DNA of 64,000 bases from Pseudobdellovibrio sp. (GTDB lineage Bacteria; Bdellovibrionota; Bdellovibrionia; Bdellovibrionales; Bdellovibrionaceae). Both the position numbers and the translations under genes were made by a program. The stretch is taken from positions 1 to 64,000 of the forward strand of contig JAMPXC010000008.1 of NCBI GenBank assembly GCA_023701385.1, given 5' to 3'. Below, piece after piece: positions 53,454 through 56,698 of the stretch. Numbering within the stretch: the first letter of the stretch is position 1; each line of letters begins with the position of its first letter. The notes below the pieces were generated by a model. That model did no database searches and had not been told where the DNA came from. It was given only the letters and a program-made list of their open reading frames with translations.

Positions 53454-55580
53454 GTGGAAAAAGTATTGAAGAAGTTCGACAGAGATAATTTCAAAAATAT
53501 CAATTTTAAAATTGGTGGAGCATTTTTTGCCGTTTTTGCTTTGTTGATCGGTATTTTAATTTCGATTACTTCCTATCTTTTTCATAATGTTATTGAATCT
53601 TCTGAAAATAGACTTTCACAAAACATCACAAACGTCTTGTCTATTTCGATTTCAAGAATCAGTTTTTCCGGTAAATACCATGCTCAGATTTTTTCTGACC
53701 AGCTCATCGAAAAAGAAGATTCGCTTAAATATATCGTTATTCTAGATGATTCAGGAGACATCATCTCTAAGAGTTATAACCCTGACTATCAAGAGTTTAT
53801 TGAAAGCAAACATCTGAATTCTCTTAAAAGTTACACGTCTCAAATTTCTGATTTAAACAAGGCTGGAAATAAAATAAGTTACGTCACCTGCTGCGAGAAC
53901 CAAACGATCAAAGAAATTGCGATGCCTTATTACGGAAGTTTTGATCAGGGGCAAATCGGCGTTATCGTTGCCGGGATTTCAAGTTTTACAACTCATAAAG
54001 ACATTACACGAAGCCGGTTAATTCTCATGCTTCTGGGTCTATTCGTGACCATTATCGGGGTAATTATTATTTATGTTGTTACTAATTATATTTCGTATCC
54101 GATTATTAGACTTGCGACAATGTTTCAGGGGATTCTTGAGTTTGCGCCAATATCGGTAATGGTGAATGATAAAGACGGGCGAACTATCGCCCTCAGCGAT
54201 GAGTTTAAAAAGAAATTTCTCGATAAAGCCGATGAATTCGTTGATGTAAATCAAGCGACACAGTTATTTAAAGGCCCTGATTTAGAAAAAATGTTAACCG
54301 ATGTGCCAACCCGCCATGAGGGGATTTTAACTTATTTAACACTTAAGTTTCCGCTTTTTGATTCGATGGGAAAATTTTATGGTGTATGCGGCATTGCCAC
54401 TGATGTAACAGAGCGAGAAAGATTTCAAAAAGCTCTGTTAAAAAGTGAAGCTGATTATCGTTCTATTTACGAAACTTCACCGGTAGGTATTTTAAATATT
54501 GGTCCTGATGGACACTTTCAGAGATGTAACCGGGCCTTTGAAGAGTTCGTAGGTTATTCAGAAGCTGAACTTATTGCTTTTAGTTTTAAACATACGACTC
54601 ATCCGGATGACGTGGAAGTTTCGGCCCAGGAAATGAAGGCTCTACTAGCTGGAAGTAAATCTAATGTTAGTTTTGAAAAACGCTTTATTAGAAAAGATGG
54701 AAAAACTGTTTGGGGTCACGTTTCAGCCTCTGTTCTTCGAAATGAAAAGGGTGAGTTTGTTAAAACGATTTCTATCGTTGAAAATATAAATGAGCGCAAG
54801 ATGGCTCAAGAAGCGCGGGATAAATTACTTGTGCAAGAACAGATTGCGCGCTTAGAGGCGCAAAAAGCCGTGAATGCCCGCGATGAATTTTTATCGATCG
54901 CTTCGCATGAATTAAAAACTCCACTGACAACGTTAGCGCTACAAACGCAGTTGTTAAATCGTCTGATCGAGCAGGGGCGTTTAAATACGTTAAGTAAAGA
55001 AAAGCAACAAGACATGCTCCGTATTTCAAGACAGCATCTTGAACGCCTATCATTACTGATTGACAGTCTTTTAGATGTTTCACGTATTGGAGCGGGCAAG
55101 TTAGCTCTTCAAAAGGTCGATATTAACTTGTATGACCTGTTAAATGATATACTTCAACACTTTCAAATGGAGTTTAAAGAAAAGGGATGTGCGATTAGCT
55201 TAGCTGGAGACACCAAAATTATCGGGCACTGGGATAAACTTCGTCTTGAGCAGGTGATTGTAAACCTTATTTCAAACGCCATTAAATTCGGCGCGGGAAA
55301 ACCTATTGCTGTTAAGGCTTTCGTAGAAAATGGCAAGGCTAAATTTACTGTGCGTGATATGGGAATTGGTATTTCAAAAGAAAATCAAACTAGAATATTC
55401 GAGCGTTTTGAAAGAGCTGTTTCGATCAATAGCTTTGGTGGTTTAGGTTTAGGTCTTTATATCGTTAAAGAATTAGTCGAAACTCATGGCGGACATATTT
55501 CAGTAGAAAGTGAACTCGGCGAAGGAGCTATGTTCATTGTTGAATTACCGTTAAATCATGGTGCGCGAAGAGGGACTTGA
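53454..55580 (+). CDS. Membrane sensor histidine kinase with PAS domain(s)
   Basis: About 708 residues from GTG 53454; an ORF start at 53286 overlaps the previous gene by 157 bp and is rejected, TTG 53430 is possible. Two membrane segments (about 18-42 and 190-215) flank a periplasmic domain of 150 residues, then one or two PAS domains (the second with a PAC tail near 330-450), HisKA with H485 (ASHELKTPL) and an HATPase domain (NLISNAIKF, DMGIGI, GLGLGLYIVKE). Likely works with the binding protein and response regulator upstream. The last seven codons lie inside an antisense tRNA-Leu gene. Confidence 0.88.
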   Translation: MEKVLKKFDRDNFKNINFKIGGAFFAVFALLIGILISITSYLFHNVIESSENRLSQNITNVLSISISRISFSGKYHAQIFSDQLIEKEDSLKYIVILDDSGDIISKSYNPDYQEFIESKHLNSLKSYTSQISDLNKAGNKISYVTCCENQTIKEIAMPYYGSFDQGQIGVIVAGISSFTTHKDITRSRLILMLLGLFVTIIGVIIIYVVTNYISYPIIRLATMFQGILEFAPISVMVNDKDGRTIALSDEFKKKFLDKADEFVDVNQATQLFKGPDLEKMLTDVPTRHEGILTYLTLKFPLFDSMGKFYGVCGIATDVTERERFQKALLKSEADYRSIYETSPVGILNIGPDGHFQRCNRAFEEFVGYSEAELIAFSFKHTTHPDDVEVSAQEMKALLAGSKSNVSFEKRFIRKDGKTVWGHVSASVLRNEKGEFVKTISIVENINERKMAQEARDKLLVQEQIARLEAQKAVNARDEFLSIASHELKTPLTTLALQTQLLNRLIEQGRLNTLSKEKQQDMLRISRQHLERLSLLIDSLLDVSRIGAGKLALQKVDINLYDLLNDILQHFQMEFKEKGCAISLAGDTKIIGHWDKLRLEQVIVNLISNAIKFGAGKPIAVKAFVENGKAKFTVRDMGIGISKENQTRIFERFERAVSINSFGGLGLGLYIVKELVETHGGHISVESELGEGAMFIVELPLNHGARRGT

Positions 55581-55641
55581 ACCCTCACGCTTGCGCATAC
55601 GCCCCTCAAACGTACGTGTCTACCAATTCCACCATTCGCGC
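55559..55641 (-). tRNA. tRNA-Leu (anticodon GAG)
   Basis: Minus strand: acceptor GCGCGAA (from 55641) pairs with TTCGCGC, discriminator A, encoded CCA. D-loop GGAATTGGTAGACA, anticodon loop TTGAGGG giving GAG, long variable arm, and T-arm GGGTTCAAGTCCC. Class II structure as required for Leu. The 3' end overlaps the end of the histidine kinase ORF by 22 bp. Confidence 0.95.
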
Positions 55642-55710: not shown

Positions 55711-55777
55711 TCGCTAAAATTCTTTATTAAAAGTGATAATTTCCATGGCAGACTAATTGATTCTAAGGGGTATAGGG

Positions 55778-56203
55778 ATGTCTAAGTTTTTAGTTTTACT
55801 TTTATCAGTAAGTTTAATGGCTACAACAGTAAGCTTTGCTGAAGAAGACATCGACCCAGCCTTAAAAGATGTGCAAGACTTACTGCGCACAGAATCTAAA
55901 CGCAATGAAGCTATTAAAGCTGATCCTAAAGCGCAGCAGGCTGATAGCTTTGCGTTACAAGCCGTGGGTGGCAATCAACAGTTAAAGAACGAAGTTTATG
56001 ATGTGTCGGCTGATATTATGGCCACAGTTCAAAAACTAAGTGGTGGCGACACGGCAAAGATGCAACAGCTACTGCAAAAAGCTTTGCAAAATCCCGGTGA
56101 ATTTTTAAAGTCATTACCCGCTGATCAGCAGGCAAAAATTCGTGGTATTGCGAATCAAGTGCAAAAGAACAAATCTTCGGCGCAAGCCGCTCCTAAGCCA
56201 TAA
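55778..56203 (+). CDS. Small exported helical protein
   Basis: 141 residues from ATG 55778 (AAGGGG and AGGG upstream; signal peptide MSKFLVLLLSVSLMATTVSFA). Mature part all-helical, Gln/Lys/Ala/Asp-rich, no Cys, with a Gln/Ala tail. No family recognised. A degenerate TCTCA dyad lies upstream; a CCATAA/TTATGG hairpin with T-rich tail lies downstream. Confidence 0.68.
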   Translation: MSKFLVLLLSVSLMATTVSFAEEDIDPALKDVQDLLRTESKRNEAIKADPKAQQADSFALQAVGGNQQLKNEVYDVSADIMATVQKLSGGDTAKMQQLLQKALQNPGEFLKSLPADQQAKIRGIANQVQKNKSSAQAAPKP

Positions 56204-56292: not shown

Positions 56293-56344
56293 TCTTTTGC
56301 TCTTTTTTTAACCCCAAAGTGGAACCGAATCATCTAACCATTAA

Positions 56345-56492
56345 GAGCAAGGACGCTCCCCCAAGACGACTAAGGGGTGCATACAGCTAGGATGGCTGTT
56401 TCCGAAGTCGTCGATAGAGTTGCCAAGGAAGGCGACGAGCAAACAAGTCGGGTCGCAGACGCGCGAGACTTAAGAGACGAACGAAGAAGGAG
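56345..56492 (+). ncRNA. Candidate structured leader RNA
   Basis: Several helices can be drawn: GACGACT (56365) with AGTCGTC (56406); ACAGC/GCTGT (56383/56395); GTTGCC/GGCGAC (56419/56431); AAGTC/GACTT (56445/56467) with inner TCGC/GCGA; and CTCCCC (56357) with GGGG (56374). CGTCG (56409-56413) can instead pair with CGACG (56433-56437), so two folds compete. This density is well above that of the surrounding DNA. It ends in the ribosome site of a 41-residue ORF, so it may be a regulatory leader. It does not match the riboswitch consensus sequences I can recall. Confidence 0.45.
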
Positions 56493-56498
56493 TTTCCA

Positions 56499-56624
56499 GT
56501 GAGTTTCGAATTAAATGAAGTTTTAATTTTTTGCGGGTTTTACTCAAGCCTAGTGATCTATTCCCTCTGGATCACGGTGGCAGATAGAAGAGTAAAGGTG
56601 CCAGCAAAAAGATTTTATAAGTAA
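56499..56624 (+). CDS. 41-residue single-span membrane protein
   Basis: GTG start with AAGGAG six to seven bases before it; 41 codons, TAA at 56622-56624, then a clear terminator. The product starts MSFELNE, continues with a hydrophobic helix of about 21 residues (VLIFCGFYSSLVIYSLWITVA) and ends in a basic tail (DRRVKVPAKRFYK): one transmembrane helix, N-out/C-in by the positive-inside rule. The size and form recall KdpF-like or other small regulatory membrane proteins, but I find no definite relative. Preceded by a long structured leader, so expression may be conditional. Confidence 0.6.
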   Translation: MSFELNEVLIFCGFYSSLVIYSLWITVADRRVKVPAKRFYK

Positions 56625-56663
56625 GAATAAGTTGGGTTTTGGTGGTTCCCTAACTTAATCTTC

Positions 56664-56698
56664 AGCGGAAAGCCTAAAAAGCTTTCCGCTTTTTTTTA
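56664..56698 (+). terminator. Strong terminator before queA
   Basis: AGCGGAAAGC (56664-56673), CTAAAAA loop, GCTTTCCGCT (56681-56690), then T8. Confidence 0.92.

Follow-up and report, generated by a model that had tools for sequence, protein, structure and literature searches.

Described CsrA-binding RNAs and the locus in the window

CsrB/CsrC and RsmX/Y/Z of Gammaproteobacteria are short intergenic RNAs that carry several GGA-loop hairpins, possess their own promoter and an intrinsic terminator, and occur in genomes with csrA. Hairpin loops of the AYGGAY type are also found in the TwoAYGGAY RNA of Rfam, and the fimAICDHF leader of Salmonella is an mRNA leader that both binds and titrates CsrA. 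In the glgC leader of E. coli, a GGA overlaps the ribosome site and a GGA hairpin lies upstream; to our knowledge, no trans role has been attributed to glgC. The leader hairpins of flaA mRNA in Campylobacter jejuni likewise bind and titrate CsrA, with a GGA near the ribosome site (PMC4894983), and SR1 of B. subtilis is a dual-function sRNA that base-pairs with ahrC mRNA with CsrA as a helper (PMC8501984). The published CsrA/RsmA site is a GGA in a short hairpin loop, preferably a hexaloop, with the SELEX consensus RUACARGGAUGU (PMC7652899).

We analyzed a window of 64,000 nucleotides (the whole stretch of Pseudobdellovibrio sp. DNA under study), in which one unit spans about 56,341–56,697 and combines an ECF-type promoter, GGA-loop hairpins, an ORF, a 3' hairpin and a terminator. 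An earlier note on this DNA had described a self-contained transcription unit; its leader, ORF and terminator are present, but the unit is larger than proposed and includes the promoter at 56308–56336 and the hairpin at 56629–56656. The elements named there, i.e. hairpins from 56345, AAGGAG at 56487–56492, a GTG ORF at 56499–56624 and a terminator at 56664–56697, were all found in place. The features are as follows.

55559–55641, minus strand: tRNA-Leu(GAG), upstream of the RNA in opposite orientation; synteny marker outside the RNA
56308–56336, plus strand: ECF-type promoter, -35 TTAACC (56308–56313) and -10 region CATCTA (56331–56336), at a conserved position upstream of hairpin 1
56345–56358, plus strand: hairpin 1, GAGC-AAGGAC-GCUC, GGA in the loop; covariation
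56365–56412, plus strand: hairpin 2, outer stem GACGACU/AGUCGUC and apical ACAGC-UAGGAU-GGCUGU (56383–56399), GGA in the loop; comparison with genome G013
56419–56436, plus strand: hairpin 3, GUUGCC-AAGGAA-GGCGAC, GGA in the loop; folding and family comparison
56445–56471, plus strand: extra lineage-specific hairpin without GGA, missing in G013, whose leader is shorter there
56483–56496, plus strand: weak hairpin GAAG/UUUC with the ribosome site AAGGAG (56487–56492) in its loop; candidate CsrA-type GGA
56499–56624, plus strand: ORF of 41 residues from a GTG start, with a short N-terminus, a single transmembrane helix and a basic tail
56629–56656, plus strand: 3' hairpin AAGUUGGG-UUUUGGUGGUUC-CCUAACUU; stem covarying and loop almost invariant in the family
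56664–56697, plus strand: intrinsic terminator AGCGGAAAGC-loop-GCUUUCCGCU followed by a U-run, from the sequence

The window RNA shares the listed traits of CsrB/CsrC and RsmX/Y/Z, with a promoter and terminator predicted from sequence. It differs from them in that its family has no Rfam match, fewer sites, an ECF-type promoter and no GacA/UvrY-type palindrome above chance; in addition, most members are coding (with an ORF under selection), the loop of the 3' hairpin is almost invariant, and the family is restricted to Bdellovibrionaceae. Whereas flaA and fimAICDHF encode large structural proteins, the product of the window family is a membrane protein of 28–60 residues, and, unlike in those two systems, the RNA part has persisted where the ORF was lost. 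As in glgC, a GGA overlaps the ribosome site with a GGA hairpin (hairpin 3) upstream, but, unlike in glgC, orthologues without the ORF exist. TwoAYGGAY RNA has a similar loop type; its model had no match in the window and ten relatives. Like SR1, the window RNA is a small RNA that encodes a small protein and has a putative CsrA link, and, unlike for SR1, no base-pairing target was found.

Distribution of the RNA family and its GGA-loop hairpins

The covariance model R1, built on the 3' part, matched 55 of 66 Bdellovibrionaceae genomes, including B. bacteriovorus HD100 (locus at about 2,159,840–2,160,190, plus strand), and not one of 75 genomes from elsewhere in the order; among 291 genomes drawn from the phylum, matches were confined to Bdellovibrionaceae. 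Scanning 84,980 species for the exact pattern gave apparent members only among Bdellovibrio-type records and vaguely named MAGs that match Bdellovibrionaceae genomes. The upstream tRNA-Leu(GAG) in opposite orientation was present in 28 of the 35 loci scanned, indicating that the loci are orthologues, and the RNA is usually single copy and vertically inherited at one syntenic site. We regard it as practically certain that this Bdellovibrionaceae RNA family is real. At both gathering and permissive thresholds, Rfam searches of the window and of ten relatives returned only tRNAs and sub-threshold noise, with no match to the CsrB, CsrC, RsmX/Y/Z or riboswitch aptamer models, in line with the earlier note, which had matched the leader to no riboswitch consensus. 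Two genomes carry two copies each, namely G010 (L027 and L183, both with the ORF) and G024 (L081 and L133, neither with it). Between tRNA-Leu and the RNA, the window also holds a 148-codon ORF (55757–56203), probably for a secreted protein, with weak Pfam matches only; it looks inserted in the window lineage, because the tRNA lies much nearer the RNA in most relatives.

The predicted 5' end of the RNA falls immediately 5' of hairpin 1, at about 56341–56344. All three GGAs of the window leader sit in hairpin loops, and one further GGA lies inside the ribosome site. Across 53 RNAs (G003 was excluded, and its entry in the promoter listing is mis-anchored), predicted hairpin loops held 120 GGAs compared to 20.9 ± 4.7 in dinucleotide shuffles. 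The minimal clean case, L058, consists of GAGAGC-AUGGAU-GCUCUC and GACCGC-AAGGAU-GCGGUC. Hairpin 1 has the family form GAGC-ANGGAN-GCUC, and its stem is completely swapped in places (CUUC/GAAG, GAGCC/GGCUC, GAAGC/GCUUC) with the GGA unchanged. In an alignment restricted to rows of the same loop length, this hairpin showed 24 double-change cells, 85% of all cells were paired compared to 69% in shuffles, and its covariation score was reached by none of 500 shuffles. The covariation agrees with the structured leader described in the earlier note. That note had also drawn two foldings: AGTCGTC with GACGACT, the outer stem of hairpin 2 (56365–56371 with 56406–56412), is preserved in G013 through the compensatory change GACGACA/TGTCGTC, whereas CGTCG with CGACG (56409–56413 with 56433–56437) has no counterpart there. 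The folding energy of the leader is unremarkable (z = -1.6), so the case for the leader rests on comparison. Relatives have leaders of between about 80 and 200 nt, and the spacer that precedes the ribosome site varies freely as well. In G031 (L037), G020 (L073) and G019 (L080), hairpin 1 reads GAGCAUGAUGCUC, in which the first-loop GGA is lost and the stem retained. An overlapping 41-residue ORF across the leader (56377–56502) was rejected as a gene in view of this variation in leader length.

The hairpin around the ribosome site is weak in the window (p about 0.19). AAGGAG lies in a clear hairpin loop in G011, G001, G013, G010, G026, G031 and G022, i.e. in part of the window's own genus and a few others, and the hairpin was absent from the loci of the genus Bdellovibrio that were compared.

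The GGA loops of the leader fit the published CsrA site (PMC7652899), and each of the 60 genomes searched (60/60) has one csrA. On this pattern, CsrA is highly likely to bind the RNA. Antagonism of CsrA in trans is also probable; the 2–4 strong sites per RNA, fewer than in CsrB, count against a sponge. The earlier note had overlooked the GGAs in hairpin loops, the relatives without the ORF, and the position of the best-conserved part, which is downstream of the ORF. We infer a new Csr/Rsm-like family with an embedded small membrane-protein ORF, and the whole reading, in which a Bdellovibrionaceae-specific Csr/Rsm-type regulatory RNA doubles as an mRNA, is given a probability of roughly 0.6. 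Weighing against this reading, besides the number of sites, are the members whose hairpin 1 lacks GGA, the stronger conservation of the 3' loop, the restricted spread of the ribosome-site hairpin and the deviating -10 region of the window.

The 3' hairpin, the embedded ORF and other readings

The 3' hairpin carries the loop consensus UUnGGUGGUUC; no other sequence in the RNA is as well conserved, not even the GGA part. The stem of this hairpin showed 60 double-change cells, and 91% of all cells were paired compared to 65% in shuffles, with none of 500 shuffles reaching the score; these are loop-anchored counts, used because the stems are of unequal length and RNAalifold, run on a MAFFT alignment of the 3' module, counts too few pairs. 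Given its even higher conservation, the 3' loop must serve another purpose than the GGA part. This conservation is what speaks for an sRNA that acts by base pairing or protein binding through the 3' loop, with CsrA only protecting or chaperoning it, much as CsrA helps SR1 in B. subtilis. Conserved complementary targets were not found: in the own-genus genomes, a long complement of the loop occurred only at the RNA locus itself, and complements near ATG showed no clear excess over controls; pairing through short seeds may still occur. We consider an RNA acting through this loop alone unlikely.

A protein search covering 60 relatives recovered the 41-residue ORF from 12 of the 14 genomes in its own genus (E <= 1.3e-4), as well as from other genera of the family. 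A core of the type FC..YS[GS].V...LW and a short N-terminus recur in nearly all of 39 aligned ORFs, mostly with a basic tail. In all 12 ORF pairs compared, pS exceeded pN (pS 0.29–0.70, pN 0.01–0.26; 0.40 and 0.05 against the nearest relative), indicating purifying selection. These results show that the unannotated membrane protein proposed earlier is genuine; it is very probably translated, and a membrane location of the product is predicted. A Pfam search with the small protein matched no family. The ORF is present in its own genus, in genus g6 (Bdellovibrio) except G061, and in G014, G019, G022, G025, G026, G031, G033, G034 and G088. It was not found at the inspected loci of genera g5 and g8 and of G015, G016, G021, G024, G027 and G061; a weak ORF call in G017 has a sequence unrelated to the family ORF. 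The orthologues without the ORF retain the promoter, the GGA hairpins, the 3' hairpin and the terminator at the same site beside tRNA-Leu. Differences within genera (G016 and G034; G061 and the rest of its genus) indicate that the ORF was lost and the RNA kept, and, because several orthologues keep the RNA without the ORF, the RNA has a function of its own.

This pattern bears directly on the reading that the locus is an mRNA only, with a CsrA-repressed 5' UTR of the glgC type before a small membrane-protein gene and no action in trans. The selected ORF, together with a ribosome-site GGA and upstream GGA hairpins in the glgC arrangement (PMC7652899), is as such a leader would have it, but retention of the GGA hairpins and the 3' hairpin in orthologues without the ORF is left unexplained by a leader-only role, and we find this reading distinctly improbable. 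A type I toxin mRNA, i.e. a small hydrophobic peptide behind a long structured 5' UTR, would match the size, single helix, basic tail and leader, but it is hardly credible for an RNA that is usually single copy, inherited vertically at one syntenic site and kept after loss of an ORF that is itself under purifying selection; a sigma-70 scan showed no antisense promoter, which is weak evidence, as other promoter types lie outside such a scan. A riboswitch or attenuator with alternative folds has very little to commend it beyond the two pairings drawable in the window, given that one of them is missing from the nearest relative, that leader length and spacer vary freely, and that the conserved bases are hairpin loops with no aptamer core and no Rfam match; the regulatory switch near the ribosome site suggested in the earlier note fails on the same missing pairing.

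ECF-type promoter and a putative CsrA circuit

By sequence, the conserved promoter-like element and the terminator suggest that the RNA may be a stand-alone transcript. The promoter has the family form TTAACCC-N16-(C)GTCTTA a short distance before hairpin 1, from which the -10 region of the window departs. In three Bdellovibrio genomes, a similar promoter, GTTAACCGAA..GAGTC, precedes an ECF sigma gene. The gene in HD100 (G060) contains both published bd0743 RT-PCR primers and is therefore bd0743; the form TTAACC-N-GTC precedes it and most of ten orthologues, a link of sequence similarity only. With 12 fixed bases only, the pattern should turn up by chance about once or twice per genome. No GacA/UvrY palindrome was found near the promoter, and the count in the window was at chance level. 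ECF control of the RNA appears probable. In a published study, groES/groEL expression rose when Bd0743 was lost, and bd0743 and its neighbor are not co-transcribed, unlike usual sigma/anti-sigma pairs (PMC3464611). Speculatively, a sigma factor that drives this RNA, or some other negative or indirect regulator, would be expected to give such a groES/groEL rise on its loss.

In the proposed mechanism for the Csr/Rsm-type RNA that doubles as an mRNA, a transcript of about 355 nt would be made by a Bd0743-type ECF sigma factor, and its GGA-loop hairpins would bind CsrA dimers; free CsrA would fall and CsrA targets would be derepressed. Free CsrA would also occupy the ribosome-site GGA, so that the 41-residue protein would be made mainly when the RNA outnumbers CsrA, and from this arrangement we infer translational gating of the ORF by CsrA. 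The fixed-loop 3' hairpin may have a second role in protein binding, base pairing or turnover. That the embedded membrane protein is a read-out of CsrA exhaustion, translated only once the RNA has saturated CsrA and then feeding back from the membrane on the ECF sigma pathway or a predatory life-cycle switch, is a doubtful extension; if true, the RNA sponge and the peptide would form one self-limiting circuit. We know of no Csr system with such a sponge-plus-peptide design.

A combined sponge-like RNA and membrane protein could help explain lifestyle switching in Bdellovibrio-type predators. The HD100 locus offers a tractable entry into post-transcriptional control of a model predator, and the constant sponge-like part, with an ORF that comes and goes, provides a natural series for the study of dual-function RNAs. 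In a literature search whose scope excluded most subscription papers and preprints, CsrA and Bdellovibrionota were never combined; judging by titles and abstracts, the literature on CsrA and Bdellovibrio appears not to treat a Csr RNA there. The RNA is missing from the table of eight attack-phase sRNAs of HD100 (PMC3627812, Table 2), which speaks against the proposed reading; that list was restricted to attack-phase-enriched RNAs.

Similar promoters were seen before two other genes. The form TTAACCGG-N-GTGTCTTA, of the sRNA type, lies about 23 nt before fliW, directly downstream of csrA, at L206/L237 (G000, the genome of the window, contig C52, 10047–10076, minus strand) and L238 (G013). FliW is a CsrA antagonist (PMC4894983), and, if the fliW promoter is real, one ECF sigma factor might raise both RNA and protein antagonists of CsrA; it is a lead only, because it was not seen in the other genera read. 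In two genera, TTTTTTAACC-N-GTCTTA precedes a DksA/TraR-like gene (L207 in G060, L209 in G002, L210 in G008), which probably belongs to the same ECF regulon. Immediately before the -35 box, L184 and other g6 (Bdellovibrio) loci, from several genomes, carry an inverted repeat of the type TTTTGC-N12-GCAAAA (TTTTGCCCACAAATTTAGCAAAA), not seen in the window, which is possibly an activator site. In L060 (G062), an 18-bp duplication separates the -35 and -10 elements of the sRNA promoter.
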